NCBI GenBank assembly: GCA_937120495.1
Contig: CAKZJW010000024.1
Coordinates: 1-64,000 of the forward strand
Direction: 5' to 3'
DNA length: 64,000 nucleotides
Source of the DNA: an uncultured Oligoflexia bacterium
GTDB lineage: Bacteria > Bdellovibrionota > Bacteriovoracia > Bacteriovoracales > Bacteriovoracaceae
The translations under genes and the position numbers were made by a program. Positions 26,660 to 53,877 of this stretch are shown piece after piece. Under the pieces are notes generated by a model. The model did not search any database. It was given only the letters and a program-made list of their open reading frames with translations, and had not been told where the DNA came from. How positions within the stretch are numbered: the stretch's first letter is position 1; every line of letters begins with the position of its first letter.

Positions 26660-26674
26660 CTTTTAATATAAATT

Positions 26675-26695
26675 TGGTACTCCCAAGGGGGGATT
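26675..26695 (-). other. candidate attachment site: tRNA 3'-end fragment
   Basis: Read on the minus strand this stretch ends in CCCCTTGGGAGTACCA: a C-rich T-stem side, a 7-nt acceptor strand (TGGGAGT), discriminator A and CCA. No tRNA body precedes it; upstream (to the right) the sequence is unrelated. A tRNA 3' end kept next to its own terminator, without the rest of the gene, is what is left at the distal end when an element integrates into a tRNA gene. The T-loop-adjacent bases do not fit perfectly (two extra C), so the isoacceptor is not named. Confidence 0.5.
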
Positions 26696-26805
26696 ACCAT
26701 ATCAATATTAACACTAATAAATTCAAAGCTTTACGAGTAATTACAACGATTTATCTTTTTTATACTTCATTATTTTTCATCTTTTTTAATCCAATATCAT
26801 GCACG

Positions 26806-26848
26806 AGTTGGTCTGAAACTGGTCTGGCAGACCAACTTCAGACCAACT
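26806..26848. repeat. 43-bp near-perfect palindrome with four TGGTCTG half-sites
   Basis: The arms match at 19 of 21 paired positions around base 26827. The motif TGGTCTG occurs at 26809 and 26820 on the plus strand and, inverted, at 26828 and 26839, with 11-bp spacing in each arm. That regularity suggests a cooperative protein-binding site (operator, or recombination-directionality/integrase arm site). It could also fold as a hairpin in RNA; only TTTT follows. Confidence 0.7.
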
Positions 26849-31017: not shown

Positions 31018-32502
31018 ATGAAAACAAAACTACTAATGACACTGACTTTACTTTTATCACTTACTCTTTTGGGAGGCTGTGAAACTGGAGCCGAATTTGA
31101 GACAATCGCAGAAAACAGCGACTCTGGAAATAACTCAGGAGATAGTGGCGGGTCAGGAACACCATCAGATGTGACCTTTGCCGGCATTGATAATATCTCA
31201 GCAGTGACAGACTCAACTGCAACTATAAATTGGACTCATGTTGCTGGCGGAGTTCAATATCAAATTTTTTCAGTGAGTGGATCAACTTTAACTTATATCT
31301 CTTCAGTCGAAGCCCCAACAGCAACCTACAATCTAACAGGATTAACGGCAGCAACAAGCTACACCTATAGAGTTAGACTTGTTGACTCTGGTGGTCTTAA
31401 CGATGCAAATACAAACGACATAAGCTTTACAACAATAGGCGCACCAAGTGCTCCGACAGGTCTAGCTCTAACAACACCAGCCTCAAGCCCAGGCTTTGAT
31501 ACAACACCAACTATTACTGTTAGCGGAGTAAAGTCAGGAGATACCATTAAACTTTTTACAGACCTAACTTGCTCAACAGAAGTCGGTTCCGCAGTTTCTG
31601 CTGGAACAACAACAGCAATTACAACATCTACCTTAGCAGCAGCAAGCTACACCTTTTACGCCAATGCAACTGGAAGCGGCGGAGCAAGCTCCTGCTCCAC
31701 TGCAAATGTTAGTTATACTATAAATGCATGCCCTGCTGGATATATCTCAGTTCCATCAATGGCATCAGTAGGCGCACCAGATAATTTCTGTGTCATGCAA
31801 TATGAAGCAAAGAACAGCGGCGGCGCCCCAGTGTCAACAGCAACAGGTGCCCCATGGGTAAGTATAAATCAGGTAAATGCCAAGGCTGAATGTCAATCCT
31901 TAGGTGCAAACTACGACTTAATTTCAAACCCTGAATGGATGGCAATAGCTAGAAACGTAGAAAATGTCGCTTCTAACTGGACAGATGGAGCAGTAGGTTC
32001 AGGCTGTCTTAAAAGAGGAAATGTCGGCGGAGCAAATGCTTGTGCTGGAGGAGACTCTGGTTATAACGGATCAGACCCTGAATCAGGAGCCGGCAGAAAC
32101 GCCTTAGCCTCACTCACGCTTGATAACGGCGAAGTAATTTGGGACCTCTCAGGAAACGTCTGGGAATGGACAGACTGGACCCTAGGCGGAGCCCTCTCAA
32201 CGAATATGAGCCAAGCTAATAAGCCAAGTAGTGGTGGTACACCGGTAGCATCATGGATTGAGTTAACAGCAGTAGATACATTTACAGCACTCTCTCCTGC
32301 GGAATCAATATTACCAGATGACCCTAGTTTTAACGCAAGTTATGGTATGGGCAGATACTATGCAGGAACATCCGGCGGGGCGGCGCTTCGCGGTGGTATT
32401 TGGGGCAGTGGAGCGAACGCTGGTGCGTTCGCGCTCTATTTGGTCCTTTCCTCTACGTCCTCGTACACGAGCGTTGGCTTTCGCTGCGTCTTCCGCCCAT
32501 AG
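31018..32502 (+). CDS. DGR variable protein: surface lipoprotein with C-type-lectin/FGE-like domain
   Basis: 494 residues. Signal peptide II with lipobox LLGGC (lipidated Cys21), a Ser/Gly-rich linker, a fibronectin type III domain at about 52-140 (ATINWTHVAGGVQYQIF, TYNLTGLTAATSYTYRVRLVD), a second Ig-like domain to about 235, then a formylglycine-generating-enzyme/C-type-lectin fold with the hallmark IWDLSGNVWEWTDW. Residues 452-493 are the variable repeat; codon differences from the template fall at residues 461, 463, 464, 466, 474, 476, 477, 482, 483, 485 and 486, the usual binding face of such folds. The gene is clearly more GC-rich than its neighbours. It is expected to display a diversifying ligand-binding surface, target unknown. 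GAGG lies 11 nt before the ATG. Confidence 0.93.
   Translation: MKTKLLMTLTLLLSLTLLGGCETGAEFETIAENSDSGNNSGDSGGSGTPSDVTFAGIDNISAVTDSTATINWTHVAGGVQYQIFSVSGSTLTYISSVEAPTATYNLTGLTAATSYTYRVRLVDSGGLNDANTNDISFTTIGAPSAPTGLALTTPASSPGFDTTPTITVSGVKSGDTIKLFTDLTCSTEVGSAVSAGTTTAITTSTLAAASYTFYANATGSGGASSCSTANVSYTINACPAGYISVPSMASVGAPDNFCVMQYEAKNSGGAPVSTATGAPWVSINQVNAKAECQSLGANYDLISNPEWMAIARNVENVASNWTDGAVGSGCLKRGNVGGANACAGGDSGYNGSDPESGAGRNALASLTLDNGEVIWDLSGNVWEWTDWTLGGALSTNMSQANKPSSGGTPVASWIELTAVDTFTALSPAESILPDDPSFNASYGMGRYYAGTSGGAALRGGIWGSGANAGAFALYLVLSSTSSYTSVGFRCVFRP
32371..32495 (+). repeat. DGR variable repeat (VR)
   Basis: 125 bp at the 3' end of the variable-protein gene, matching the template repeat at 34794-34918. 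All 100 positions that are not adenine in the template are identical. 15 of 25 template adenines are replaced (7 to G, 7 to T, 1 to C). The first 27 bp and last 20 bp contain no adenine in the template and are unchanged; the GC-rich 3' block is the expected initiation-of-homology (IMH) segment. Confidence 0.97.
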
Positions 32503-32548
32503 TAACGCACAGAGCATAACTTAATTTGTAAGTAACTCTCTGCATAGG

Positions 32549-32562
32549 GTGCCGTCAGGCAC
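32549..32562 (+). promoter_or_regulatory. hairpin downstream of VR
   Basis: GTGCC-gtca-GGCAC, a 5-bp stem extendable by two G-T pairs with a tetraloop, 53 bp after the VR. In the Bordetella phage DGR a hairpin just after the VR marks the target for efficient retrohoming; this one is shorter and farther away, so the parallel is tentative. GGGTGCCGTCAG (32547-32558) recurs immediately after the TR (34918-34929). Confidence 0.45.
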
Positions 32563-32630
32563 TTGGACCCTTGAAATCTTGGCTCTTGGAATTTTAATTT
32601 TCTTTTTTAACAACTAAAAACATTGCAAAC

Positions 32631-32792
32631 TTTCCGGAAACCAAATGGCTTCTTTCCGAATCAAGCCAAATTTTCCGGAAAAATGTTTTGTTTTCTGAAA
32701 ATCTCTTTAAATTTTCAATATTTTCCGGAAATGGCAAATTATACGGCCGCACTTTCGGAAAAAAAGTGCTATGCTTTCCGAAAGTACGGAAA
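32631..32792. promoter_or_regulatory. cluster of TTTCCGGAAA palindromic sites
   Basis: Three perfect TTTCCGGAAA sites (32631, 32672, 32722) alternate with imperfect copies: TTTCCGAA (32653), TTTCTGAAA (32692), TTTCGGAAA (32753), TTTCCGAAA (32775) and a CGGAAAG half-site near 32787. Spacing is about 19-31 bp. The cluster ends just before the ATG at 32802 of the HTH gene, so it probably is its operator and promoter region. It fills most of the gap between the variable-protein gene and the HTH gene. Confidence 0.75.
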
Positions 32793-32801
32793 GATAGAGA
32801 A

Positions 32802-33464
32802 ATGAATAAAAATAAGATTGAAGTATCAGTTAAAGAAGCTGCTGAAATGATCGGGGTAAGCAGTCGTAGCATCATAAACTATATTAAAGCAAAAGAAATT
32901 GCAGCGATTAAAGTTGGAAAGTCATGGTTTATCAAGGAACCTTCTCTCATAGCATTTTCTCAAAGACATGGAATAAACATTGGGCAAAACAACAATAACG
33001 ATGAGCCAGAGACTGAAGATAGTACAGAGAATCATAGTCTCCAAGAAGAAATAAGTCCTGTAGCTATTAAAAGTAAGGATTCTAGACAATCTAAAAATAA
33101 AAAGGCCAGATATATAATCAAAAATTTAAAACTGTACGAGATAGCTCATAAGGCTTTTCAAATGCAAAATTGGGTTCAATTAGACAACAGCAAAACCCCA
33201 CCTCAACTACTAACTAAGCTTTATGACTTAAAGTTAGCAGCTCTTGAATTAATTGGGGCCGGATATCACTCATTTGATAAAAAAGAGAAAAGAAACTTAT
33301 ATAATCAATCAAGGGAGAAAGTAGGAGGAATTCTTGCTTTGCTGTATTCTGACGAAGAACTAGAAAAAGCTTGGGGCAATGAAATTAAGTTTATGGAAAA
33401 TCAACTTCTTGCAGCTTACTCATCCCTGATTAGAAAAATGGAAAAAAGAAATGAAAAACAATAA
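32802..33464 (+). CDS. excisionase-type HTH protein with helical-bundle domain, DGR-linked
   Basis: 220 residues from the ATG at 32802; a longer open frame (from 32688) runs through the repeated palindromes and is rejected. The N-terminus is a MerR/excisionase-type winged HTH (VSVKEAAEMIGVSSRSIINYIKAKEIAAIKVGKSWFI), then a charged linker (about 65-110), then a helical domain (YEIAHKAFQMQNWV, LLTKLYDLKLAALELIGAGYH, LYNQSREKVGGILALL) that resembles a four-helix bundle of the Avd type. Located between the variable protein and avd and overlapping avd by 14 bp, so part of the DGR operon. Probably an autoregulator or a second accessory factor; exact role unknown. Confidence 0.8.
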   Translation: MNKNKIEVSVKEAAEMIGVSSRSIINYIKAKEIAAIKVGKSWFIKEPSLIAFSQRHGINIGQNNNNDEPETEDSTENHSLQEEISPVAIKSKDSRQSKNKKARYIIKNLKLYEIAHKAFQMQNWVQLDNSKTPPQLLTKLYDLKLAALELIGAGYHSFDKKEKRNLYNQSREKVGGILALLYSDEELEKAWGNEIKFMENQLLAAYSSLIRKMEKRNEKQ

Positions 33465-33807
33465 GATATATTCAGACTGCTATCAAACGAGTATTCATAT
33501 TTTTAATAGAACAAAGTCATTTCCTAAACATTTAAGACCAACTCTTGGTAGAAAAATTGAAGAATCAATTTTAGACTGTTTATTAAATATTAGAAAGGCG
33601 AATGTTTCCACTGCTCCTAAAAGAATTGAATTTCTCTATCAAGCATCAAACTCTCTTGATGATTTAAGAACTTTAGTGGGGATATCAAAAGATATGATGG
33701 CATTAAATCCTGCTGGTTTTTCTGATATCACAGAGCTTACAAAAACAATTGGAAAAGAACTGGGAGGGTTTATTAAATATGAGAAAAACCGAAACCCTGC
33801 TAGATAA
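33451..33807 (+). CDS. avd: DGR accessory variability determinant (Avd)
   Basis: 118 residues with the four-helix-bundle pattern of Avd and the 23S rRNA intervening-sequence protein family: KSFPKHLRPTLGRKIEESILDCLLNIRKAN, KRIEFLYQASNSLDDLRTLVGIS, then a last helix (ITELTKTIGKELGGFIKYEK). Avd forms a basic pentamer that binds the DGR reverse transcriptase and the template RNA and is needed for mutagenic cDNA synthesis. It overlaps the HTH gene upstream and the RT gene downstream. Confidence 0.9.
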   Translation: MKNNKIYSDCYQTSIHIFNRTKSFPKHLRPTLGRKIEESILDCLLNIRKANVSTAPKRIEFLYQASNSLDDLRTLVGISKDMMALNPAGFSDITELTKTIGKELGGFIKYEKNRNPAR

Positions 33808-34777
33808 GGTTGCTAACTTTAATAATCTATGTGCTGCTTTTAAAGAATGTTCAAGAGGAAAAAAACAAAAATCTGGCTATCAAAATTTCCTTTTTAATTA
33901 TGGAGAAAAACTCAAATCAATTGAGCATGAACTTCTTGAAACAGGAACTTTTAACTGGGGAGGATATAGAGAGTTTGAAGTTTCCGATCCTAAGAAAAGA
34001 ACTATAATGGCCGCTCCGTTTAAAGATAGAATTTTGCATACAGCAATTCATAGAGTTATTGCACCTAATATTGATAAAACATTTGGTGCTAGGACTTATG
34101 CCTGTCGTAATGATATGGGTAACCGAAATGCAACAACAAGAGTGTGGGAACAAGTAAAAAAGATGGGGGCGAAAAGGTATTGTATAAAGTTAGATGTTAA
34201 ACAGTACTTTGCTCACATCAATCACACTATTTTGGAGGAACAAATCTTTAGAATTTTAAAAGACAATTCTCTTCGTCCATTAACTCATGGTTTGATTTCT
34301 TCTCACCCGAAATATAAAGTATCACAATGTGGTATACCAATAGGAAACTTAACATCTCAGCTTTTTGCTAATCTGTACTTATCAGGAGCAGATAAATACG
34401 CCTGTGAGCTTCTCGATATAAAATATAATGAAGATGATACTAATGAAAAGAATTTTTATATACGCTATATGGATGATATGGTTATCCTTGCTGAAAACAA
34501 AGAGCAGGCATTTTATTGTGCTAATAACCTAATAAGACATATTCAAGAGCAGTTAAAGTTATCAATACCTACAAGTAAGAAAGTGATACTTGCAAATGAT
34601 CCTATTCCATTTTTAGGGTTTGTTCTTGATAATGACTACCGAGTATTAGCAAGAAACAAGAGAAAACTGTTCAAAAAAATTAAAAGATTGGATAAAGCAG
34701 GGGCTTGTCTATCTGATAAGGCCATGGTGCTACAATCTTATAATGCTTGGAAAGACTTAGATCATAGTATGGGATAG
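33779..34777 (+). CDS. DGR reverse transcriptase
   Basis: 332 residues from the ATG at 33779 (GGGAGG 11 nt upstream, overlapping avd by 29 bp). RT fingers/palm blocks in order: KKRTIMAAPFKDRILHTAIHR, CIKLDVKQYFAHI (first metal Asp), GIPIGNLTSQLFANLYLS (the SQ motif typical of DGR enzymes, where group II introns have QG...SP), IRYMDDMVI (YMDD, residues 230-233) and PFLGFVL. There is no maturase, endonuclease or integrase domain, which separates it from group II and LTR elements. It makes error-prone cDNA from the adjacent template repeat, with misincorporation opposite adenine. Confidence 0.96.
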   Translation: MRKTETLLDKVANFNNLCAAFKECSRGKKQKSGYQNFLFNYGEKLKSIEHELLETGTFNWGGYREFEVSDPKKRTIMAAPFKDRILHTAIHRVIAPNIDKTFGARTYACRNDMGNRNATTRVWEQVKKMGAKRYCIKLDVKQYFAHINHTILEEQIFRILKDNSLRPLTHGLISSHPKYKVSQCGIPIGNLTSQLFANLYLSGADKYACELLDIKYNEDDTNEKNFYIRYMDDMVILAENKEQAFYCANNLIRHIQEQLKLSIPTSKKVILANDPIPFLGFVLDNDYRVLARNKRKLFKKIKRLDKAGACLSDKAMVLQSYNAWKDLDHSMG

Positions 34778-34793
34778 AACCATGCCTCAGAAG

Positions 34794-34918
34794 TCCGGCG
34801 GGGCGGCGCTTCGCGGTGGTAATTGGAACAATGGAACGAACGCTGGTGCGTTCGCGCTCAATTTGAACAATTCCTCAACGTCCACGAACACGAACATTGG
34901 CTTTCGCTGCGTCTTCCG
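34794..34918 (+). repeat. DGR template repeat (TR)
   Basis: Begins 17 bp after the RT stop codon. 125 bp, GC-rich apart from 25 adenines concentrated in nine AAY codons plus ACG, TCA, GGA and ATT codons when read in the VR frame. AAY codons cannot mutate to stop codons by adenine substitution, the known design of DGR templates. The open reading frame that runs through it (34782-35081) is incidental. The transcript of this region serves as template RNA. Confidence 0.97.
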
Positions 34919-35001
34919 GGTGCCGTCAGACTTGAAAACAATAGGTGTTAGAAGTAATTTAGTACTGCTAAAATACCACCTTTCTCTTTATGAGATTTCA
35001 A

Positions 35002-35058
35002 GGCCCTTCGGTTCTATTCCAGGGCCCATCACGAGGGGGAATATTTTTCCCTCTCGTG
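35002..35058. other. two strong stem-loops downstream of TR
   Basis: First: GGCCCT / AGGGCC (35002-35007 and 35021-35026). Second: a 12-bp stem with one G-T pair, CACGAGGGGGAA / TTCCCTCTCGTG (35030-35041 and 35047-35058), 5-nt loop. No T tract follows on the plus strand. They may stabilise or end the template RNA or mark the DGR boundary. Confidence 0.6.
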
Positions 35059-35126
35059 AAGTCCGAATTACAATAGTTTAACATTTAACAATGATACTCC
35101 GATTAAATATTGAGGAGAAAAATTGT

Positions 35127-35915
35127 ATGATAAATAAAAAACTACTTTTTCCATTGGTTGCAATACCCTATGCATATGCTACTTGTGCTTATGGAGGTGA
35201 GTATATTGTTAAAGAGGGAGAAAGTATTTCAAGTATTCTTCAATACTATCGACAAACGAGAGGTATGAGCACTAAAGGAGAAGACTTTAAAAGAATAGTT
35301 AAGAAAGTCCTCGATCTTAACCCTACAATTCTCAATGCTAATTTGATCAAAGTAGGACAAAAGCTTCAATTACCAAAAGATTACTCGTTTGAGACAACGC
35401 CGATACAAAAATATGAAGTTAAATTTGGTGATACTTTTTCTGAAATAGCACAGCGATTTTTAGAGCATGGAAAAATTTGGAGTAAAGTTAATTACTTAAA
35501 AAAATATAATCCAAAAGTAAAAAATATTGATTTTATAAGATCTGGAAGTATAATAAATATTCCTAGTAGTAAAAAAAGAAGAGAAATTGCGACTAACAAT
35601 AATTTCTCTTCGAATCCTGAATTGACCAATGAAATTTATTTTTTGAAATCAACTGATGCTCAAGATTATATACTCGCTTTTAGATCATTAGTTCAATCTG
35701 AAAGTAAAATTGACTTGGTAAAATCACTAAAGTTTTCTCTTGAGCTATCTCGAAAATTTAAAAATGATCATCTTGAACAAGCTTTTTTAGAACTTATTAC
35801 TGTGACTTTAAAATCAAAGGATGATATTCATTTAGATGAGATAAAGAAGTTTCTTTTATCATGGAAAAGAGTAAGAAAGAAGAAAAAACAAAATGGATAT
35901 GTTTCATCGCTATGA
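35127..35915 (+). CDS. LysM-domain envelope protein
   Basis: 262 residues from the ATG at 35127, which has TGAGGAGAAA upstream. Signal peptide (LLFPLVAIPYAYATCAYGG), then two LysM-like modules: EYIVKEGESISSILQYY...LNPTILNANLIKVGQKLQLPKD and QKYEVKFGDTFSEIAQRFLEHG...YNPKVKNIDFIRSGSIINIPSSK. LysM binds peptidoglycan glycan chains. The C-terminal third is helical and unrecognised. Its stop overlaps the start of the next gene (ATGA), a second LysM protein. Confidence 0.83.
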   Translation: MINKKLLFPLVAIPYAYATCAYGGEYIVKEGESISSILQYYRQTRGMSTKGEDFKRIVKKVLDLNPTILNANLIKVGQKLQLPKDYSFETTPIQKYEVKFGDTFSEIAQRFLEHGKIWSKVNYLKKYNPKVKNIDFIRSGSIINIPSSKKRREIATNNNFSSNPELTNEIYFLKSTDAQDYILAFRSLVQSESKIDLVKSLKFSLELSRKFKNDHLEQAFLELITVTLKSKDDIHLDEIKKFLLSWKRVRKKKKQNGYVSSL

Positions 35916-36889
35916 AAATAAATACGCTCTTTATCACCATATTTATTAGTATATCAGCTTTAAGTAATGAGGTTTTAAAAGACATTAAATTCGCTGATGA
36001 GAAAGTAGGAGGTGATCGAGTTGAGACCTACCGAGTTCTTGACTCTGATACATTCTCGTCAATTGTAGAGGAACATACAAAAAAATCTACAAGTACATTT
36101 AATGAGAATGCAAACTTTATAAGAAACTTAAACCCACAAATTATAAATATTAACAAACTTACTGTCGGACAATTAGTTTACCTGCCAAAGGTAGATGAAA
36201 AGAAAATTGCAAGAATTCAAGAAAACACTAAGAAATGGAGTGTCGGAGCTAGCTATGGGTCAAGCTATTTTAATCTTCTCCAGAGAGGAGTTCTTGGGAA
36301 TTCAAATATAAGAGTGAATACAGCTTCAAGTCTTAATTTATATTCACAATATAGTAATGAAAATTATAAATTAAGGATTGACTATGAATCGTATAAATTA
36401 AACTACAAAGCGAATGGAAGTGAAAAATCTGATAGCTTAAATAATTTTGGCTTGAGCTTTAGATATAAATCATTTGTTACAAACATCCTTGCAAGTGAAG
36501 AACTTCTATTTAAAAATAACAATGGAACAGTTAGTCATTCTAAGGTATTAAATAAAAAAATTGGAGCAGGATTTGTAAAAGATTGGAATCTTGAATTTAA
36601 AAATCCAACCTCACTAGAGTTCAGCTCTATTTTGAATTATCAATTTGCTGGAGATTCTTCTGATAAAGAGTTAAAACTCTCAAAAAGTTCAGGATATGGA
36701 GTAAGCTTCAATACAATCTTAAAGCGAGAGCTATATAAGAAGTCTTTGTTTGAGATTTATTTTGTCTGGCCAACATCAATAGGATACCAAGAAAACTCAT
36801 CAACATTAGACTGGAACTCAACCTCTGGAATATCAAAATCAAGGAACTGGGAAGTTGGAACACGTCTTGGAATAGAGGCTAGATTCTAG
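35912..36889 (+). CDS. LysM plus outer-membrane barrel protein
   Basis: 325 residues from the ATG overlapping the upstream stop; signal peptide (LFITIFISISALSNE). One LysM-like module (ETYRVLDSDTFSSIVEEHTKK...LNPQIININKLTVGQLVYLPK) precedes about 210 residues of alternating beta-strand pattern (YKLRIDYESYKLNYKAN, FGLSFRYKSFVTNIL, IGAGFVKDWNLEFKN) that ends GTRLGIEARF, a C-terminal Phe as in BamA-inserted barrels. The layout suggests a barrel tethered to peptidoglycan, resembling the periplasmic LysM of inverse autotransporters but without a passenger. Confidence 0.75.
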   Translation: MKINTLFITIFISISALSNEVLKDIKFADEKVGGDRVETYRVLDSDTFSSIVEEHTKKSTSTFNENANFIRNLNPQIININKLTVGQLVYLPKVDEKKIARIQENTKKWSVGASYGSSYFNLLQRGVLGNSNIRVNTASSLNLYSQYSNENYKLRIDYESYKLNYKANGSEKSDSLNNFGLSFRYKSFVTNILASEELLFKNNNGTVSHSKVLNKKIGAGFVKDWNLEFKNPTSLEFSSILNYQFAGDSSDKELKLSKSSGYGVSFNTILKRELYKKSLFEIYFVWPTSIGYQENSSTLDWNSTSGISKSRNWEVGTRLGIEARF

Positions 36890-44778: not shown

Positions 44779-47700
44779 ATGGAAACGACAAATAAAAAAA
44801 ATGAGATGGGAATGCCAGAAGCTCTTATGGCAAGCATCGGTGTAATCGCAATCTTTTTCTTATTATCTTTTAGTGCGAAGTATGGAGTAAATAACACAAT
44901 AGATAAAATTGAGCTTATCTGGGAATTAAACAAAGTACGAATAGTCTCTCTTGTTAGTATTTTAATCGTAAATATATTCCTTATTTGCTCAATTACAAAA
45001 CGAACTCTCTTTATGAAAGGACAGGGAAATAGACTCAAAAATATTAGGGGAGAAAAAAAGCAAGGTTTAAAAGAGAAGTTTCTCAGTATTAGTCTTTCAT
45101 CTTTTCTCATAGGACTTTTGTACTTAACTTTTAAGGAAACTCTTATTTATCCTTTTATATCGATTGAAGGAATACGTTTGCCTTATACAGTTAAGCAAAA
45201 TATAGAAATATTATATTTGACCAACTTTGGGTTTTTAGCACTTTTTCTTTTAAATAAGGTACTTTTATTAATTCAAAAGAGCTTCCGTTTTTTTGAAGTG
45301 AAGCAAAAATTACCTCGAATTCCTACCCAAGAGAATCAAGTTGTGATCGGGACAGAGGGAGAAGAAGATGATAATGAGTCTCACAAGTTATCTGTATATT
45401 TTAACTATATTGTTCAAAGAGTAATCAAGTGGGTGACAATACCTGTAAAAGGTTTAAATGCGAATGTTTTATTTCTTGGTTCGATAGGAACAGGTAAAAC
45501 GGCAGGGATGTTAATTCCTTTTGTTGAACAGATTTTAGTGAACTTTAAAGTTGCTCCATCTATTTTAGCTTTAGACCCTAAAGCTAACTTTGTTAAAGAG
45601 TTGATTAAGTTATTAAAAGAATATGGAGTTGAGAAGGACATTTTGCATCTTAAACTTGGTGGTCCTGTGACTTTAAATCCTGTCTATAAGAAGGATATGC
45701 TTAAGAATGGTAACTTTATTGAAGTTGCGCAAAATTTTAGAGCAGCATCAGCAAATTATATGGGAAAGTCGTCAGAGTCTCCATTTTGGGATAACTCAGC
45801 TTTTAATCTAATAAAGAATACGATTGTATATTGTTCAGCAGTTTATGATTATTTCACACTGAAGGAAGTGTATAAGGTAATGCTTATTGCTGTCGGAGAT
45901 AATGGAGGTATTGAGTTAAGTGATACGCTTGAATCAATTATTGATAGCGAAGAACGAGGCTTTGATGAAGAAGAGCAATTTAATATCACAACCGCAATAG
46001 AATTTTTTAGAGGTGAGTACAACGAAATTGATAAAAAACTTAAAAGTGGTGTTCATGCAACGGCAACAGTTTTTATGTCGATGTTTAACGAATATCAAGC
46101 AAATAAGATCTTTTGTCCAAAAAAAGAAGATTTGGTTATTCAAAGTATGGAGGATTTAGTTAATAGCGGAAAAATACTGATCTTTGATGTCCAAAAAGAA
46201 GGTTTAGCAAGACCTATGGGAACATATATTAAGCTTCTCTATTTACAGGCCGTCTTAGCTAGAGGGCAGAAAGAGTCAGAGAATGATTCTGATGGAACCT
46301 ATCGAAATGCTCTTGTCCTTGCAGATGAATATCAAGACCTTGTAACAGCAGGAGGAGCCGGTATGGTTTCTGATGTTTCGGCACTGGCAAAAGGAAGATC
46401 AAAGAAGTTGATTTTTGTTGCAGCAACACAAAGTTATAGCTCAATTATTAATGCTGTTGGAAATGAAAAAGCTTCAAAGGAGTTATTGCAAAACTTTAGA
46501 ACTAAAATATGCGGCCAATCATCAGATTTGACAACAATTAAGGAGTTTCAAGAGTTAGTTGGAAAAATTGATATTGAAAAAGTCTCTCGAAGTATTGGTG
46601 AGAATTCTCAGCAAGCTAAAAGAAATATGGTTTTGGGTGGCTTCGATGCTGATAATGCTAATATCAATGAATCTGTAAGCACGAGTACACAAAAAGAATA
46701 TATTATAACGGCACAAGACTTTATGAATTTAAAAACTTATGAAGCTTTTGGCTTTATATATGATGGAGTTGGCCAAAGTTTTAAGAAGATATTCTTTAAG
46801 CCTCATTACTATACAGATAAGAAGATTAAGCATAAAAAAGTTTTATCTGATTTAGCAAAAGAGTTAACTACTGCAATGTTTGTGTTTTGTTTTTCTTTCG
46901 GAGCAATGGCATTTCCTAATATTTGTAGTGTTGTGAAAACACCGACTTTTAATTCATGTTTAAGTTTAAAGGTTGGTAGTTGTACTTGTGGCCCTTGGTA
47001 TGCACCAAGACCTTGTGCAAGAGTAAGTTACTATGTACCTCAATCTTTTATTGAAGCTCATCCCCATAGAAAGACTTCATACTTTATGGATCTACCTTTG
47101 GCGGCGGCACAAATCAACTCTTTGAAGGATGTATCAACACCCTTTGGAGCAGAGGCAGATCAGGGAGCCTATTCTTTTCATGCTCATTCGTTAGCGGTTC
47201 CCTTTGGAAGCTATATGAATGTATTGCCTTGTGGTGGAAGTAGATCGGAGAAAACTTGTTTTGATGGAATGTCAGAGCATTTACCTACGCATTGGAGAAC
47301 GGGAAGTGGCGATACGCTTCAACCTAAGTTTTTGGCTTGGAGTCTTGCTCCAAAAGCTTGCCTAATCAAAGGGGCTGCTATGTCCGCAACTGGTGGAGAG
47401 GCCAGCTTTTCAGGAGAGGGGGGGTGTAGTTTTCCTATGGATTGGATGAAAAAATTTCTTCCTTCGACTCACTCTGTTTGTAATGGGTGGGGAACTTTCT
47501 TTCCTCGGAGTGGAACAGTTCAAGGTGTAAATCAAACAACTGCATCTTTAATGATTGCATCACGGATAAAAAGCTTATCTTCGGAAGTGTTTAAGTCAAT
47601 GCCAAGCTCTTTTGATGAAAAATGGCAGATGATTTCTCCACAGGCCAGTTCTTGTTTTAGAGAAGGGCAAAATATGGGGATGTTGGAGCTTCCCAAAATG

Positions 47701-47856
47701 GTAAATGAAGTAAAAAGACTTAGCACTGGAAAGGTGACAGGTTATTTATATACAGTCTGGAAAAGAGTTAGCTGCTGCATTGATTATCCACGATTACCTG
47801 CTGTTTATGCTGCGATTTCATTATTGAAATCTACATGCCAAGGGGTAAAAAAATGA
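44779..47856 (+). CDS. VirD4/TraD-type coupling protein fused to a TraU-like domain
   Basis: 1025 residues. Residues 1-180 hold several membrane segments; Walker A is GSIGTGKT (about 234-241), ALDPKANFVK follows, and Walker B with its flanks is ALVLADEYQDLV, then FVAATQSYSSI: a VirD4/TraG-type coupling ATPase that feeds relaxosome DNA to the channel. Near residue 700 a hydrophobic segment with signal-peptide character (AMFVFCFSFGAMAFP) starts a second part rich in Cys (CSVVK, CTCGPWYAPRPCARVSYYVPQ, CYSF-like SFHAHSLA, TGYLYTVWKRVSCCIDYP) that resembles TraU, normally a separate periplasmic protein. The frame is open throughout, with no ribosome site at the junction. Fusion of the two is unusual. 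Confidence 0.87.
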   Translation: METTNKKNEMGMPEALMASIGVIAIFFLLSFSAKYGVNNTIDKIELIWELNKVRIVSLVSILIVNIFLICSITKRTLFMKGQGNRLKNIRGEKKQGLKEKFLSISLSSFLIGLLYLTFKETLIYPFISIEGIRLPYTVKQNIEILYLTNFGFLALFLLNKVLLLIQKSFRFFEVKQKLPRIPTQENQVVIGTEGEEDDNESHKLSVYFNYIVQRVIKWVTIPVKGLNANVLFLGSIGTGKTAGMLIPFVEQILVNFKVAPSILALDPKANFVKELIKLLKEYGVEKDILHLKLGGPVTLNPVYKKDMLKNGNFIEVAQNFRAASANYMGKSSESPFWDNSAFNLIKNTIVYCSAVYDYFTLKEVYKVMLIAVGDNGGIELSDTLESIIDSEERGFDEEEQFNITTAIEFFRGEYNEIDKKLKSGVHATATVFMSMFNEYQANKIFCPKKEDLVIQSMEDLVNSGKILIFDVQKEGLARPMGTYIKLLYLQAVLARGQKESENDSDGTYRNALVLADEYQDLVTAGGAGMVSDVSALAKGRSKKLIFVAATQSYSSIINAVGNEKASKELLQNFRTKICGQSSDLTTIKEFQELVGKIDIEKVSRSIGENSQQAKRNMVLGGFDADNANINESVSTSTQKEYIITAQDFMNLKTYEAFGFIYDGVGQSFKKIFFKPHYYTDKKIKHKKVLSDLAKELTTAMFVFCFSFGAMAFPNICSVVKTPTFNSCLSLKVGSCTCGPWYAPRPCARVSYYVPQSFIEAHPHRKTSYFMDLPLAAAQINSLKDVSTPFGAEADQGAYSFHAHSLAVPFGSYMNVLPCGGSRSEKTCFDGMSEHLPTHWRTGSGDTLQPKFLAWSLAPKACLIKGAAMSATGGEASFSGEGGCSFPMDWMKKFLPSTHSVCNGWGTFFPRSGTVQGVNQTTASLMIASRIKSLSSEVFKSMPSSFDEKWQMISPQASSCFREGQNMGMLELPKMVNEVKRLSTGKVTGYLYTVWKRVSCCIDYPRLPAVYAAISLLKSTCQGVKK

Positions 47857-49046
47857 CAGACAATATTTTTATCGAAAAAACTAAAAGTATTGAAGAGAAA
47901 ATGGAGTCAGACTTTGCCTATACTTCAATCTTTAGAGAGTCAATTAAGAAAGCGAAAGAGTTTGAAGCAAGTGATGTTCACATTGAACCTTTTGAAAGTG
48001 GTGTTCGTATTCGCTTCCGTGTTTTTGGAAAACTATTTATTTGGAAAGAGCTTTCTTTGGTACATAGAGAAAGTTATATAAGAGAAGTTAAGCAATTATG
48101 CAATATGTCGATTGCAATTGTTGGTAAACCTCAAGACTCCTCAGTTACTTTTAGTAATTGGAAATTAAAACTTAGAGCAAATATAATTCCTTCAATGGAT
48201 GGTGACAGTATTGTTTTAAGGTTAATTGATATTGGAAGAGAGGTTAATCTTAATGATTCAGGCTTTTCAAGTGATGTTTATACTAATTTAGTCCAATTAA
48301 CACAGCTAAAGATGGGGCTTTGTGTTTTTTCTGGGCCAACAGGTAGTGGAAAATCAAAAACTCTAAATGGAGTCATCAATAAAATAGATAGGATCAAAAA
48401 TAAAGTTATTACTTTAGAGAATCCAATTGAATATCCAATTGTTGGCGCAACACAAGTTGAAACAAGTGCAAAGCTTACCTTTTCAGAGGCGCTAAGAGCA
48501 TGTATGAGGCAAGATCCAGATATTATTCTTGTTGGAGAAATTAGAGATAAAGAGACTGCACATTTAGCTGTAGAAGCAGCAGCAACAGGGCACTTAGTCT
48601 TTTCAACGATACATGCAAACAGTGCTATAGAGGTTATTACAAGACTTGTCGATACCTTTGAAGTTGATAGGGGATTATTGAAATCTGTTCTAAAGTTTTC
48701 TTCGGCACAAAGGCTTATTTCTAAAATTTGTTCTGAGTGTTTCCAATTAGCAAATTTAGAGGATGCGGCAATATTAAGAAAACGAATTTCTGAAAAATGG
48801 TATTTAGCAGAAGAAAAAGAAGAATCTCTTCGAGTGAAAAATACTCATGGGTGTCAGCACTGTAACGATGGAGTTATAGGCCGTCTACCAATTCTAGAGT
48901 CGATTGCGGAAAGAAGCATCATAGATGTTTTTGAAGGAGAAGAAAACAGTATTAAAAAAAACGATTTATTTAAAAATGCAATAACTCATCTGGCTAGAGG
49001 TGAGGTTTGTTTAAAGGAGGTGATGCAAATTGATAAATCTAGTTAA
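47853..49046 (+). CDS. GspE/PilB-type secretion ATPase in the conjugation operon
   Basis: 397 residues from the ATG overlapping the upstream stop (ATGA; AGGGG upstream). N-terminal ASDVHIEP, Walker A GPTGSGKSK (about residue 161), the Asp box ENPIEYPIVGATQVE, LRQDPD-type MRQDPDIILVGEIRD, the His box GHLVFSTIHANSA, and two Cys pairs (CSEC and CQHC) of the zinc finger typical of GspE/PilB. Classical F-type systems have no VirB11 ATPase, so a GspE/PilB-like enzyme here is notable; it may power pilus dynamics or substrate switching. Confidence 0.92.
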   Translation: MTDNIFIEKTKSIEEKMESDFAYTSIFRESIKKAKEFEASDVHIEPFESGVRIRFRVFGKLFIWKELSLVHRESYIREVKQLCNMSIAIVGKPQDSSVTFSNWKLKLRANIIPSMDGDSIVLRLIDIGREVNLNDSGFSSDVYTNLVQLTQLKMGLCVFSGPTGSGKSKTLNGVINKIDRIKNKVITLENPIEYPIVGATQVETSAKLTFSEALRACMRQDPDIILVGEIRDKETAHLAVEAAATGHLVFSTIHANSAIEVITRLVDTFEVDRGLLKSVLKFSSAQRLISKICSECFQLANLEDAAILRKRISEKWYLAEEKEESLRVKNTHGCQHCNDGVIGRLPILESIAERSIIDVFEGEENSIKKNDLFKNAITHLARGEVCLKEVMQIDKSS

Positions 49047-49842
49047 AAGTAGCAGTTTGCTTGTTGCTATCGCTTTGTGCTTACAAAGTGCGAAAGCAGT
49101 AGAGAGTGAAGTTAATTTTTTTGAGGACAGTTCGATTAACTATTGGGGCAATGAAAAGAAAGAAGCAGTAAGTGAAACTAAACAAAAAAACAAAGATGAA
49201 ACGAAAAAGAAGGAGGCTAAAAAGAATAAGTTCTCATGGAGAAATCATCTGGACGTGGAAAAAGATGATTTTTTTAAAGAAGGGAAACACACGCCGCCAG
49301 CACCTTTAATGGAAGTTGCAAGAAGACCAACTGATAAAAATATCAAAAATTATTTAAAGTATTTTGGTATGAAAAATTTCATTAAAGAAAGAATGCAAAA
49401 TGCTATTGAAAATTACATCAAAAGAACTAGGTTGAGCAAGAAGAGAGAACTGCCACTTGCTTCTAAGAAGTATTTAATTCAAAAAGCAAATGAATTTAAA
49501 GGACATGTTAAAGGAAGAGAGAAAATTCGATTTGTAATGTATTTTCGTTCGACATGCCCGCACTGTAAAAGAATGTTCAAAACCTTAGAGGAATTACAGG
49601 AGTTAGGCTTTATAACTCATGCAATTCAAATGGATAAAGGTACTTTAAGAGATAGCTATAATATCGCAATCTCTAATGGAACACAAAAAGATTTGAATCT
49701 CTTAAAACGACTTGGAGCGAAGGGAGTTCCATTTACATTGATTCAAGTTGAAAACAAAAAACAATACTCTTTAAAAGGTTATCGCTCTGTCAGCGAAATT
49801 TTAAATCTTTTAAAGGCTCAACTTAAACAAGAACAGATTTAG
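49030..49842 (+). CDS. thioredoxin-like periplasmic protein (TrbB/TraF-like)
   Basis: 270 residues from a TTG start at 49030. The start is fixed by a perfect AGGAGG (49015-49020) and by the signal peptide that follows (VKSSSLLVAIALCLQSAKAVES). The C-terminal domain is thioredoxin-like with the redox motif CPHC (RFVMYFRSTCPHCKRMF) and the cis-Pro region KGVPFTLIQVE. In F-type systems TrbB/TraF assist disulfide formation in Cys-rich Tra proteins; the TraU-like domain encoded two genes upstream is a likely client. Overlaps the ATPase gene by 17 bp. Confidence 0.85.
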   Translation: MINLVKSSSLLVAIALCLQSAKAVESEVNFFEDSSINYWGNEKKEAVSETKQKNKDETKKKEAKKNKFSWRNHLDVEKDDFFKEGKHTPPAPLMEVARRPTDKNIKNYLKYFGMKNFIKERMQNAIENYIKRTRLSKKRELPLASKKYLIQKANEFKGHVKGREKIRFVMYFRSTCPHCKRMFKTLEELQELGFITHAIQMDKGTLRDSYNIAISNGTQKDLNLLKRLGAKGVPFTLIQVENKKQYSLKGYRSVSEILNLLKAQLKQEQI

Positions 49843-49935
49843 TTCTTTTTTCTTCTGACTTAGAATGAATCAGAAATTATCAACGACATAATGAAAATTA
49901 TGAGGATTTTCCTTGTGTCAAAATGTGAGGTGCTT

Positions 49936-50382
49936 ATGGATGCAACTAATGCATATCTATTGTCTCATTCTATTCTTAAATCATCTGATTTGGGAGGGAA
50001 TAGAGATAGGCCACCAAGTGGCTTTTGGTTTTTAGTCTTTATTATCGGGGCTTTATGTCTTTTCCAAGTATGTGATGCCTATGGCGGAAGAATACCTGGG
50101 GAAGACGTGAGTGATAAAATGGAAGCCGCAGGGAGTTTGTTAAAACTTACTGATACGCTTTTGTTTAATTGGGTAACAAAGCTCTTGTCGGGGATATGTA
50201 TCTTAACAGGGGCACTTGCTTTAAAGGATCAGCGTTTTCCTATTTTTATCATGTGTATCATTGCTGCTCTTTTACTTGGAACCATTAGTTTATGGATCAA
50301 AAACATTTGGGCTGTTGGTGGAGGATCAACATTATTTAGCTTTGTTGAGCAGTTGATTGCTATGGTGAACAATTATGCATGA
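49936..50382 (+). CDS. TraA/VirB2-like pilin candidate
   Basis: 148 residues from the ATG at 49936, with GAGGTG upstream; earlier in-frame starts at 49891 and 49900 are weaker. A long leader with a hydrophobic segment ends about QVCDAYGG, as in F pilin, which has a 51-residue leader. Then two hydrophobic helices joined by a short loop with two charges (FNWVTKLLSGICILTGALALKDQRFPIFIMCIIAALLLGTISLW), the core layout of VirB2/TraA pilins. The position just before traL supports it. No sequence-level proof; peptidase processing is inferred. Confidence 0.72.
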   Translation: MDATNAYLLSHSILKSSDLGGNRDRPPSGFWFLVFIIGALCLFQVCDAYGGRIPGEDVSDKMEAAGSLLKLTDTLLFNWVTKLLSGICILTGALALKDQRFPIFIMCIIAALLLGTISLWIKNIWAVGGGSTLFSFVEQLIAMVNNYA

Positions 50383-50686
50383 CTATTCAGAGTTTAAAGT
50401 TAAGTATGGAACGCAAGTTTCACAAACTGTAGATGAACCAATTATGTTTTTAAACTTTTGGGATATCACAGATCTTTGTTTGGGAATGCTTGTCATCTTA
50501 GTGTTTGGAACTCTCTTTTATGCGTGGTGGACAATGATTTTTCTATTGTTATTCGTCGTTATCATTATTCCACAGATTAAGCGTAAAAATAATAGAGGTG
50601 TATTTCAACACTGGTTTTACAAGAACTTAGGGATAAGTCTACCTTCCTTAATGAACCCAAAGGGTAGGCGCAAATTTTCAGATTAA
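50375..50686 (+). CDS. traL: TraL-family pilus assembly protein
   Basis: 103 residues, the size of F TraL (VirB3 counterpart). The family order is present: a short N-terminal region with a DEPIMFLNFWDITDL motif (conserved P.R./..W..DE in TraL), a double hydrophobic segment (LGMLVILVFGTLFYAWWTMIFLLLF) and a basic C-terminal region with HWFYKNLGISLP. Overlaps the pilin gene by 8 bp. Inner membrane component of the mating channel. Confidence 0.86.
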   Translation: MHDYSEFKVKYGTQVSQTVDEPIMFLNFWDITDLCLGMLVILVFGTLFYAWWTMIFLLLFVVIIIPQIKRKNNRGVFQHWFYKNLGISLPSLMNPKGRRKFSD

Positions 50687-50700
50687 CAATGGAGAAATTT

Positions 50701-50931
50701 ATGAATGAAAAAATAGAAACTACAAAAATAGGGGAAAAGAAGTATGAAAACAAAAGCAAAAACTACACAAGAAGGCTTCCGAATATCGAGCTATTTCAAA
50801 GTGTCTCTAAAGACGGAAGGTATCAAATCGTTAAAAGAGTGGAAACCTTTGTTATACCTATCAACTATATTAAAACAGTTATGGGGGAAACAAAAGGAAC
50901 TGGTAAGCAAATTGCTTCAAAGAATGAGTAG
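50701..50931 (+). CDS. small protein between traL and traE
   Basis: 76 residues from the ATG at 50701 (GGAG upstream). Lysine-rich N-terminus and a beta-prone C-terminal part, NIELFQSVSKDGRYQIVKRVETFVIPINYIK. No membrane segment. It occupies the traL-traE gap and its stop codon overlaps the traE start (ATGAGTAG), which is why I assign this frame, and not the N-terminal extension of traE in another frame, as the coding one. Unknown function. Confidence 0.6.
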   Translation: MNEKIETTKIGEKKYENKSKNYTRRLPNIELFQSVSKDGRYQIVKRVETFVIPINYIKTVMGETKGTGKQIASKNE

Positions 50932-51643
50932 TTCTATGAGATCAAATATGATCGGGCCTATTGAAAAGGGCCTAGAGGCTGCAAGGATTCAAACTCCCAA
51001 GGTCGGAACTTATGAAGGTCACGATTTAAGGGTTTTACCTGAGTTTATTTCTTACAAAGCGGCTTTAATTAAAGAAAAGCTAATTTGGAGAAATATAAGT
51101 TTTTTAATGGGCCTTATGTTTTTACTTGTCGCGATCTTTAGTGGGGGGACAATTTCATCTTTAAATGAAAGATTAAGGTTAAAAGAGTATATCTCTTTAC
51201 CTGATTTCGTTGCTGTTAGTCCTCAGTCTATCTCTGATGAAGAAATTAAGGGCTTTGTAGAGGACTTTATAGACAAGCTTGGAAATTACAATGCATTGAA
51301 TGTTGAAAAGAACTATTTGAGACTTTCAACAAGTATGAGCAATAAGCTGCGCATGAAGTTTGAACTAGAAAGCTCCGATCTTATCAATTGGATTAAAGAA
51401 GAGAATGTTACAGAGACTTTACAATGTCGAAAAACTGAAATTGTAGAAGTTGATGGTGTTTACAAGGTTGTTGCATCTTGTTCCAAAGAAACTTATGTAA
51501 ATCGTGAGTTTCTTGGAGTTAAGGGGCAAATTATTGAAATGGAAGTTAAGCTCTTGCCGCCTAAAAAAGGAAAAAAACCTCTTCAAGTCTTCGATCTTCA
51601 AAGAATCACTCCCGAAGGGTTTAAGGCCAAAAATTCAAAGTAA
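50924..51643 (+). CDS. traE: TraE-family (VirB5/8-like) channel protein
   Basis: 239 residues from the ATG overlapping the preceding stop. A cytoplasmic N-terminal part, one membrane segment (ISFLMGLMFLLVAIFSGGTI) and a periplasmic domain with YISLPDFVAVSPQSISDEEIKGFVEDFI, LRLSTSMSNKLRMKFE and IEMEVKLLP, matching the TraE family. The open frame continues 60 codons upstream but that stretch overlaps the small gene. Part of the inner-membrane scaffold. Confidence 0.85.
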   Translation: MSSSMRSNMIGPIEKGLEAARIQTPKVGTYEGHDLRVLPEFISYKAALIKEKLIWRNISFLMGLMFLLVAIFSGGTISSLNERLRLKEYISLPDFVAVSPQSISDEEIKGFVEDFIDKLGNYNALNVEKNYLRLSTSMSNKLRMKFELESSDLINWIKEENVTETLQCRKTEIVEVDGVYKVVASCSKETYVNREFLGVKGQIIEMEVKLLPPKKGKKPLQVFDLQRITPEGFKAKNSK

Positions 51644-51670
51644 TTTATTAATTTTAATTAGGAGGTACTT

Positions 51671-52456
51671 ATTAGACACTCAATTGTCTTTTTGTTTCTG
51701 CTTGCGACGTTCTTGGGAGCGTCTCAAGCCTTGGCAAAAACTATTTATTATGGAGAGGGGCGAGAAACAGTAACGGTGGTCCAGAAAGAACCAACTATTT
51801 TTCGCTTTTCAAGTTCGGTAAAAACAATTTCAAAAACTGATGAATTTTCTATTTCGCCAGTAGATAAAGCTGATCCAGATTATTCAAAGTTAAAGGTTGT
51901 TGCTCATTTTAGAAAAAGTAAAAGCAAGATAGAGTTTATTTTGGATAACGGCGAGGTTGTTAAAATTTTGCTTGCAGTTGTTCCTGGCAATATGCCAAGT
52001 CAAACAGAGTCCATTTATGATTTTGAATCAAAAGACTCTCTTCTTGCTAGAAAGGATAAGCGAACATTTATATCTGAAATGGACTTGATGAAAGCAATGA
52101 TAAAAGGAAGTTTTGTTACTGGTTATAAAATTGAAAGCATGAATCGTGCTGTATGGACAAAAGCTAAGAAGTTTAAAGTAAAGTTATTAAAAGTGTATGT
52201 GGGAGAAGAGTTTAATGGCTACATCTTCAAGGTAACTAATACTTCGAGAAAACTAAAACGCTTAATTGATCTTTCTAAAATTAAAATGGGAAGGACGAAT
52301 CTAGCTGTTTTAGCACAAGTAGATAGAAAAGAGCTTCTTTCCTATTCGAAGAAAAGTAGCCGATCTACTTTACTGAGAATCGTTGCTAAACCTTCTGCTA
52401 TTTATAGCTATCTTCAAATTCCTGTTAGAGCAATTAGGAGGGGAAATGAAAGGTAA
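51671..52456 (+). CDS. traK: TraK-family secretin-like protein, probable AUU start
   Basis: 261 residues if translation starts at the ATT at 51671. The strong site AGGAGG (51660-51665) is 5 nt upstream and this start supplies the Arg-His n-region of a signal peptide (RHSIVFLFLLATFLGASQALA). The first conventional start, TTG 51692, lies 26 nt from the ribosome site and cuts the signal peptide. No ATG/GTG/TTG lies in frame between. The mature part is beta-rich with VVAHFRKSKSKIEFILDNGEVVKILLAVVPGN, as in TraK (VirB9 counterpart). Overlaps traB. Confidence 0.82.
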   Translation: MRHSIVFLFLLATFLGASQALAKTIYYGEGRETVTVVQKEPTIFRFSSSVKTISKTDEFSISPVDKADPDYSKLKVVAHFRKSKSKIEFILDNGEVVKILLAVVPGNMPSQTESIYDFESKDSLLARKDKRTFISEMDLMKAMIKGSFVTGYKIESMNRAVWTKAKKFKVKLLKVYVGEEFNGYIFKVTNTSRKLKRLIDLSKIKMGRTNLAVLAQVDRKELLSYSKKSSRSTLLRIVAKPSAIYSYLQIPVRAIRRGNER

Positions 52457-53630
52457 ACTCATTGAGAGCATTTCTCAAACTTTTGAGGAACTAAAGAGAA
52501 AGAATACAATTTTTGTTGTAATCGGAATCGTTTTAGTTTTTTTGATTAGCTATACGTTTATTGTTATCAGCTCTAGCCCGAGTAAAAAGATCGTCGTTGA
52601 GAATAATAGGGACAAGGGAAAGTATGAGCACTCTAGAGTACTAGGTGACTTTTCAAGTTCTGGATATAGAGGAAAAAATCGTATTTTTTCAAAAAAATTG
52701 AATAGTATGGCAAAAGGCCAAAAATCTATTACAGATTCTCTTTCAAGACTGGCTAAGAGGCTTGAGGAAATAGAGCTTCAAAGTCAAAAGGAAGAAGCTG
52801 AAAAGGAGAAAAAGGCTTTAGAAAAAGAAAAAACTGAGTCTAAAGTTGGAAATGTAACTTTTCACACATCAAGTGAAGAGTTTACTGCCAGTAAAGGAGA
52901 AATGATTAAGCATACTAAAAAGAAACTAAAAAAAATTAAGCGAAAAAGCAAAAGGTTAGTTGTTTCTTTTCCTGTTAAAGATAAAACCAAGAGGAAAAAG
53001 CTTGGAATTGTTCTACCGTCGGGAAGTTACGTTAAAGCAAAGCTTCTAACTGGTGTAGAAGTACCAGAAGGAAAGACCTATCCTGTTCTTGCTCAACTAG
53101 ATTATGCTTTTATTGCTCCAAGCAATACTAGGATTGATCTTTCAGGCTGTTTTCTAATTCTAAAGAGCACAGGTGATTTAAGTACAGAGTCGGTGCAGTT
53201 TCAAGCAACGAAACTTAGTTGTGTAAGCAAAAAAGGAATGATGTTTGAAAGAAAAGTTAATGGGTTTATTGCAGATAACAAAGATAGCAATTTTGCTGTA
53301 AAGGGAGAAGTTTTATCAAAGCAAGGACGAGTTGCAAGAATGGCACTTGTTTCTAGCATTGTTGAAAAAGCATCGACACTAATCTCTGGAGCAAAATCCG
53401 GAACGACTAAAGCTCTTGGCTCTAGTGGTGGGGATGCAGCTTCAATTGTTGCTAATTGGTATCTAAAACAAGCTCAAAGCTTGCTACCAACAATTAGAGT
53501 TGGGTCTGGTCAAGATATTTGGGTTGTTATGGCCGATAGAGTTGATTTGCCAACAGAGTATTTTAAACGAACAAAAAGGAGAAAAGGAAATGAAACTATT
53601 TACTCGTATTTTTCAAACATTCTTGATTAG
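52446..53630 (+). CDS. traB: TraB-family (VirB10-like) channel protein
   Basis: 394 residues from the ATG within the traK stop region. Cytoplasmic N-terminus, membrane segment (IFVVIGIVLVFLISYTFIV), a coiled coil (SLSRLAKRLEEIELQSQKEEAEKEKKALEK) and a C-terminal beta domain: GIVLPSGSYVKAKLLTGVEVP, PVLAQLDYAFIAPSNTRIDLSGCFLI, QARVA-like GRVARMALVSS and IWVVMADRVDLP. This is the TraB/VirB10 energy-transducing envelope-spanning subunit. Overlaps traV by 41 bp. Confidence 0.9.
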   Translation: MKGKLIESISQTFEELKRKNTIFVVIGIVLVFLISYTFIVISSSPSKKIVVENNRDKGKYEHSRVLGDFSSSGYRGKNRIFSKKLNSMAKGQKSITDSLSRLAKRLEEIELQSQKEEAEKEKKALEKEKTESKVGNVTFHTSSEEFTASKGEMIKHTKKKLKKIKRKSKRLVVSFPVKDKTKRKKLGIVLPSGSYVKAKLLTGVEVPEGKTYPVLAQLDYAFIAPSNTRIDLSGCFLILKSTGDLSTESVQFQATKLSCVSKKGMMFERKVNGFIADNKDSNFAVKGEVLSKQGRVARMALVSSIVEKASTLISGAKSGTTKALGSSGGDAASIVANWYLKQAQSLLPTIRVGSGQDIWVVMADRVDLPTEYFKRTKRRKGNETIYSYFSNILD

Positions 53631-53823
53631 TATTTTTATGATTTCATGTGCGCATAGAGAGCATAGTAATGAGTTAAGCCTAAGGTCTAATTATGATAAG
53701 GACTCGAAAAGAACTAGAGCAAAAACAACTGAGATTTATATCTTTCCCCATGAAATGCCAAGTGGAGATCGTTTTATGGGAGGCAGAGTTCATGCAATCA
53801 TAGAAAGGGAAAACTGGAAATAA
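53590..53823 (+). CDS. traV: TraV-like small lipoprotein
   Basis: 77 residues; signal peptide II with lipobox ISCAH (FQTFLISIFMISC). After the lipidated Cys only about 60 residues remain, smaller than F TraV (about 170). Position between traB and traC is that of traV, the VirB7-like outer-membrane anchor. The C-terminal PHEMPSGDRFMGGRVHAIIE is beta-prone. Start chosen because AAAGG precedes the ATG at good distance; an upstream in-frame start would not give a signal peptide. Confidence 0.7.
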   Translation: MKLFTRIFQTFLISIFMISCAHREHSNELSLRSNYDKDSKRTRAKTTEIYIFPHEMPSGDRFMGGRVHAIIERENWK

Positions 53824-53877
53824 TAGAAGCGATTCGCGTTTCTATTTCAACTTAAATCTAACATTGTGAGGTGTGTA

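Follow-up and report, generated by a model that had tools for sequence, protein, structure and literature searches.

How a diversity-generating retroelement (DGR) finds its target, and how it is controlled, are poorly understood. Both questions are raised by a locus in the genome of an uncultured bacterium that is placed among Bacteriovoracales assemblies. The DNA analysed is a stretch of 64,000 nucleotides (GenBank assembly GCA_937120495.1, contig CAKZJW010000024.1, positions 1 to 64,000), here called the window, in which a first-pass annotation had recognised a complete DGR between 31018 and 34918. Is the element complete, and is it still working? What is the additional gene between its target and avd, and what are the short repeated sites in front of that gene? 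Here we argue, with considerable confidence, that this is a complete and probably working DGR carried as cargo by an integrative conjugative element (ICE), and that a helix-turn-helix (HTH) protein most likely acts on a phased array of sites, with operon control as its likeliest role.

The repeat pair, the core proteins and the trailing RNA

On the + strand the order is target lipoprotein, HTH protein, Avd, reverse transcriptase (RT), template repeat (TR) and structured RNA, and from HTH through avd to RT each gene overlaps the next, in the manner of an operon. The core features are:

31018–32502, + strand: target (variable protein), 494 aa, with a lipoprotein-type signal, fn3 and a C-terminal FGE/C-type-lectin-like domain, from domain and profile matches
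32371–32495, + strand: variable repeat (VR), unlike TR at 15 positions, each of them an adenine in TR
33451–33807, + strand: Avd, 118 aa, from PF22296 and PHROG 3206
33779–34777, + strand: DGR reverse transcriptase, 332 aa, from its match to 8ub7_A and its IGNLTSQ and YMDD motifs
34794–34918, + strand: TR, from pairwise comparison with VR
34928–35069, + strand: structured RNA after TR, covarying in ten relatives, from covariation analysis

When the region from 30 to 36 kb was searched, VR and TR formed the longest direct repeat by far. They differ at 15 of 125 positions, and every one of the 15 is an adenine in TR (seven changed to T, seven to G and one to C). TR has 25 adenines, and the probability that 15 random differences would all fall on them is 3.6e-13. 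The adenine-only product of mutagenesis is seen directly in this pair, at the positions and with the restriction to adenine that the first-pass annotation had reported. No third copy was found in the genome assembly, and the exact 23-nt core of TR has no match in IMG/VR. VR encodes residues 452–493 of the 494-aa target. The claim that nine AAY codons in TR allow diversification free of stops held on a codon check, since replacement of adenine cannot produce a stop codon in any codon of TR; about 10^13.6 protein variants are reachable in this way.

The RT carries IGNLTSQ at residue 188 and YMDD at residue 230, and its top match in the PDB is the BPP-1 DGR reverse transcriptase (8ub7, E 1.2e-30), in agreement with the SQ-type, YMDD enzyme described before. 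The Avd assignment is likewise confirmed by PF22296, above cut-off, and by the PHROG family 'Avd protein of DGR' (E 7e-20); the NCBIfam Avd model is matched with E 8.5e-12, yet below its own cut-off. The target has a lipobox-like motif, LGGC, at residue 18 and is probably a surface lipoprotein, as judged from its sequence. Among Pfam families fn3 is matched above cut-off and FGE below it. The C-type-lectin/FGE fold proposed for the C-terminal domain is supported by profile comparison with TaqVP, a variable protein of DGRs (5vf4, E 3.7e-7), but the Pfam threshold for FGE is not reached, and the structure model of the lectin domain was too poor to give any support to the fold.

The RNA that follows TR, at 140 nt, has 38 pairs in eight helices with 94.4% of cells paired, and 23 of the pairs are changed on both sides. 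Its covariation score is 0.536, compared with 0.198 in shuffles (0/500), and versions slid along the alignment score at most 0.16. A covariance model built on the ten members recovers held-out members with E-values of 8e-16 to 3e-5. It found nothing in 75 DGR loci of other groups. An Rfam search of 28–38 kb returned nothing real, and the RNA is absent from Rfam. In BPP-1 the trailing RNA interacts with the RT and the accessory protein (reviewed in PMC8867640), and by its position the RNA described here appears to correspond to it. In one relative (L146, G119:C41, positions 2514–2583) there is a second, partial match to the RNA model 3' of the first; TR-like sequence lies there beside runs of N, perhaps a second TR.

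From DGR biology, the TR RNA with its structured 3' tail would be copied by the RT and Avd, with random bases placed at adenines, and the cDNA would then take the place of VR, which encodes the C-terminus of the target, probably a surface lipoprotein with a lectin-like domain. The core features were re-tested and all are present, so that the complete DGR of the first-pass annotation stands. It was right about the RT, Avd and target and about the end of TR at 34918, although the conserved RNA continues to 35069; it omitted the gene at 32802–33464, the site array, the structured RNA and the conjugative element.

The HTH protein and the phased array

Four features lie between the end of VR and avd:

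32549–32562, + strand: short hairpin GTGCC-GTCA-GGCAC, 54 bp after VR, from sequence comparison
32562–32591, + strand: block of CTTGG repeats that relatives also keep after VR, from sequence comparison
32631–32793, no strand assigned: phased array of TTTCCGGAAA, TTCCGAA and TTCGGAA, putative sites of the HTH protein, from enrichment, spacing and conservation
32802–33464, + strand: HTH protein, 220 aa, with an excisionase/BldC-like HTH (residues 9–52) and a C-terminal four-helix bundle of predicted Avd/IVP fold, from HTH_17, conservation and model/Foldseek comparison

Residues 9–52 of the HTH protein match HTH_17 (E 1.3e-9). Homologues are found directly upstream of avd in those elements of the order that are assembled there and in IMG/VR contigs, and a profile of the protein had no match in 75 DGR loci of other groups. 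The predicted structure has a mean pLDDT of 74, rising to about 90 in the last helices. Its N-terminus is matched by Foldseek to phage Xis and BldC (4j2n, 6ama, 6amk, 8dgl) and its C-terminus to 2gsc and 2rld (IVP/S23 family) and to chain B of 8ub7, the BPP-1 DGR complex, which we take to be Avd; the latter matches have E-values of 0.07 to 1.1. The C-terminal domain is possibly an Avd/IVP-fold four-helix bundle, as predicted from the model. In the BldC and phage Xis family, cooperative binding along repeated sites is a known mode of action. The protein described here resembles that family in its HTH_17-type domain and predicted fold, and differs from it in that the HTH is fused to a four-helix bundle and tied to a DGR operon.

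The gap between the target and HTH genes contains six TTTCCGAA, TTCGGAAA or TTTCCGGAAA sites, compared with a mean of 0.08 in shuffles. There are five copies of TTTCCGGAAA in the 3.3-Mb genome, three of them within 101 bp in the array. With one mismatch allowed, TTTCCGGAAA has no excess across the whole window, so the signal is one of clustering. Across relatives, neighbouring sites are spaced near 10, 21, 31, 41 and 50 bp (R=0.84 at 10.5 bp, n=52), a phase that would fit proteins bound on one face of the helix. The excess of sites is present in the relatives that have the region, being weakest in the gap of G005C10 (1 site against 0.05), and it is retained in GC-rich IMG/VR relatives. In G005C10 and several other relatives the array extends into the HTH coding sequence. 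Non-DGR paralogues of FGE type in related genomes, among those examined, have neither VR nor array, and were rejected as additional targets.

Another locus bears on the role of the array. Contig G001:C59 carries a second target with its own VR, array and hairpin, and no HTH, avd or RT gene within the 8 kb examined; no further RT or HTH match was found in this genome outside C21. Its VR differs from the TR of C21 at 14 adenines and 9 other positions, so that another TR may be its source, and the contig ends 358 nt past VR, which makes a lost or unassembled operon possible. Together with the conservation of the array and its absence from the paralogues, this locus indicates that the array belongs to the DGR; it does not separate regulation from tethering. 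In some relatives (L145, L136, L140 and L141) a divergent gene, absent from the window, lies between array and HTH gene, and the one in L145 looks, by eye, like an XRE-type repressor.

Most likely the HTH protein would occupy the phased TTTCCGGAAA array, which separates the target from the operon, in a cooperative manner. The likeliest result of such binding would be control of its own HTH-avd-RT-TR operon, and a second possibility is that it keeps the RT complex near VR. Could the protein and array then act in homing, instead of or besides regulation, with the Avd-like bundle joining Avd and the RT and the HTH tethering the complex beside VR? The resemblance of the C-terminal fold to IVP/Avd, the position of the array between VR and operon, the second target in G001 and the lack of an array in paralogues without VR would all suit this proposal. 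However, the fold match is weak and unconfirmed by profiles, the G001 contig has the truncated end and the nine non-adenine differences given above, and the leader of a regulator's own operon, where the array lies and from which it runs into the HTH gene in some relatives, is the usual place for autoregulation. We consider a role in homing possible but rather unlikely, and a shade more doubtful again that a dedicated DNA-binding, Avd-like protein on the phased array brings the mutagenic RT complex to VR, so that target choice is partly guided by protein.

The target site of phage-type DGRs has a GRNA hairpin of 7–10 bp, 4–34 bp after VR (Guo 2011; PMC3240598). No such site is present in the window, where the weak hairpin at +54 takes its place. 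Most relatives have GC-rich hairpins with longer stems (5–8 bp, with GAA, GTA or GTAA loops), further from VR than the phage-type range. An intrinsic terminator was rejected as the reason for the hairpin, there being no run of T behind it in the window.

A conjugative element as carrier

The DGR lies between two copies of a 17-bp repeat, the second of them beyond the window on the same contig:

26674–26690, no strand assigned: left attachment repeat TTGGTACTCCCAAGGGG, a 17-bp exact repeat
44779–59276, + strand: F-type conjugative type IV secretion system (T4SS) genes (TraD/TraU, T2SSE, TraF, TrbI, TraC, TraG)
61747–63582, + strand: MobA/VirD2-type relaxase, from family matches
contig 64060–65624: AlpA-like gene and tyrosine integrase, after the relaxase
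contig 65732–65748: right attachment repeat TTGGTACTCCCAAGGGG, overlapping tRNA-Glu
L188 5734–5811, minus strand: tRNA-Glu

Between the repeats are the DGR, two-component genes, the F-type T4SS and the relaxase, and the tyrosine integrase and AlpA-like gene adjoin the right repeat. With integrase, attachment repeats, relaxase and T4SS all present, the gene content indicates that the DGR is cargo of a 39-kb ICE in tRNA-Glu. The DGR, a histidine kinase, a sigma-54 regulator and the T4SS follow one another in colinear fashion in three other genera (G119, G001 and G032), with the DGR there on the opposite strand, and TraC and a DGR share one contig, roughly 14–28 kb apart, in five genomes. Comparison with the same-genus genome G018 for an empty site gave matches too scattered for use. 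That conjugative elements can carry DGRs is already known in general terms (PMC8867640). Given this carrier, the target may aid mating contact; in a relative of Bdellovibrio it may also bind prey or other cells.

Two further observations concern the element. The 1025-aa open frame at 44779–47856 matches C-terminal models of the TraD/TraG coupling protein and then TraU, possibly a fusion of two conjugation proteins. A 15-bp repeat, ACGAGTTGGTCTGAA, at 26803–26817 of the window and 65659–65673 of the contig lies near both element ends, as do further copies of GTTGGTCTGA, and together they are possibly arm sites of the integrase.

Relatives, present activity and known systems

Is the element still active? 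Across the order (129 genomes), about a dozen copies or fragments of DGRs were located through RT matches of 39–58% identity, three of them in G005 and two in G081. Adenines account for most TR/VR differences in these relatives (G005C32 13/14, G005C10 18/19, G005C11 15/15, G012C227 14/14, G032C104 14/18, G119C63 11/15) and in two distant IMG/VR relatives (14/15 and 13/14). The first-pass annotation had proposed VR comparison between sister strains, which could be made across species. The target domain has an orthologue on contig G054:C124 (87% amino-acid identity), downstream of a gene 85.7% identical to its counterpart in the window. Between the VR of this orthologue and that of the window there are 20 differences, which fall on 16 of the 25 TR adenines and on 4 of the 100 remaining positions (Fisher p 1e-10); variation concentrated at adenines was found as expected, but not confined to them. 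A diverged, unrecovered TR may be the source of the four.

Contigs G005C11 and G081C11, from different genera, have an identical 127-nt TR and share 97.4% over 6.7 kb. The two DGR contigs of G081 (112 and 134 kb) contain one 2-base run of N each, both inside VR, and in G001 VR is covered by a run of 294 bases, the contig having 7 such runs in its 136 kb. Mixed VR sequences in the population would explain these runs; the alternative is assembly confusion of TR with VR. Two IMG/VR contigs with different dataset numbers (L184 and L185) have identical VRs, with no variation seen between them. In G005C10, G005C11, G012C227 and L184 the target is a long, repetitive, fibre-like protein that ends in the variable domain. 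Two other RTs stand apart. The DGR at L150 (G071:C86) has a distinct RT, at 33% identity; no HTH gene was found there, and its one TR is accompanied by two VR-like copies. The window's own genome has a second reverse transcriptase (G000:C105:1470-2375; L112, L151) at 27% identity.

Several points weigh against our overall reading. The Foldseek E-values behind the Avd-like fold are weak, and BLAST and hhalign comparisons of the C-terminal domain of the HTH protein with Avd were not significant; 'Avd-like' is for these reasons a statement about fold. We infer DNA binding by the HTH protein solely from its co-conservation with the array. An IS66-like insertion interrupts the HTH gene of G032 in an otherwise intact-looking DGR, so that the element may be able to do without the protein. 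In the window the hairpin beyond VR is weak, and some DGRs of the order (e.g. G081) are not near TraC or conjugation genes. Variation in VR is known from comparison across species, and the window DGR is on this evidence probably active. The insertion in G032 (L144, G032:C104) is a stretch of about 2.3 kb with IS66-like reading frames that divides the HTH gene, and avd, RT and TR look intact.

Has the window element decayed instead, with a VR rewritten in the past and the system now dead? Decayed copies do occur in the order. In one, the RT contains a stop and TR has a deletion (G054:C156), another is an array-target locus without RT (G054:C101), and in a third (L142, G054:C85, positions 547–983) RT and TR are deleted at the corresponding site: avd breaks off after 28 codons, and the sequence beyond is related to window gene 35861–36889, the downstream neighbour of the window DGR. 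In the window, by contrast, the RT, Avd and target genes are open and intact, as is TR, the catalytic motifs are present, the RNA helices are intact, and the TR/VR differences are all at adenines with no drift elsewhere. Decay is on these grounds improbable. A plain duplication as the origin of TR and VR, with differences due to chance or to gene conversion, as their occurrence in two copies only might suggest, is already contradicted by the chance value given above and by the same pattern in independent relatives, and its probability is negligible.

The preferred reading, a complete and probably working DGR, is best compared with that of the Bordetella phage BPP-1 (mtd-avd-TR-brt). The two are alike in RT, Avd, adenine-only TR/VR changes, RNA after TR and lectin-type target. 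The window differs in its order (target-HTH-avd-RT-TR), in the extra HTH protein and site array, and in being carried by a conjugative element and not a phage. Cellular DGRs with surface lipoprotein targets are described in Legionella pneumophila and Treponema denticola (TvpA) (PMC8867640). By description these are like the window DGR in having such a target. They are not known to have an HTH gene or a phased array. Bdellovibrio has MAT fibre adhesins with lectin tips (Bd2740), including an Mtd-like C-type lectin (PMC10769870). The likeness there is a surface lectin-type domain in a related predatory group, and sister elements of the window DGR diversify fibre-like proteins; the differences are that the passages of that source examined report no DGR in Bdellovibrio and that the window target is a 494-aa lipoprotein, not a fibre. 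No description of an HTH-Avd protein in DGRs was found in the literature searched, of which coverage was partial, so that novelty is unproven.

The DGR is a known type of machine, to which the HTH protein and the helically spaced array next to the target appear to be an addition of this lineage, one for which we found no description. They make both target finding and control of a DGR directly testable. Here a transferable element carries the hypermutation of a surface protein, in bacteria related to predatory ones, and the diversified target could help them to recognise prey or mating partners.

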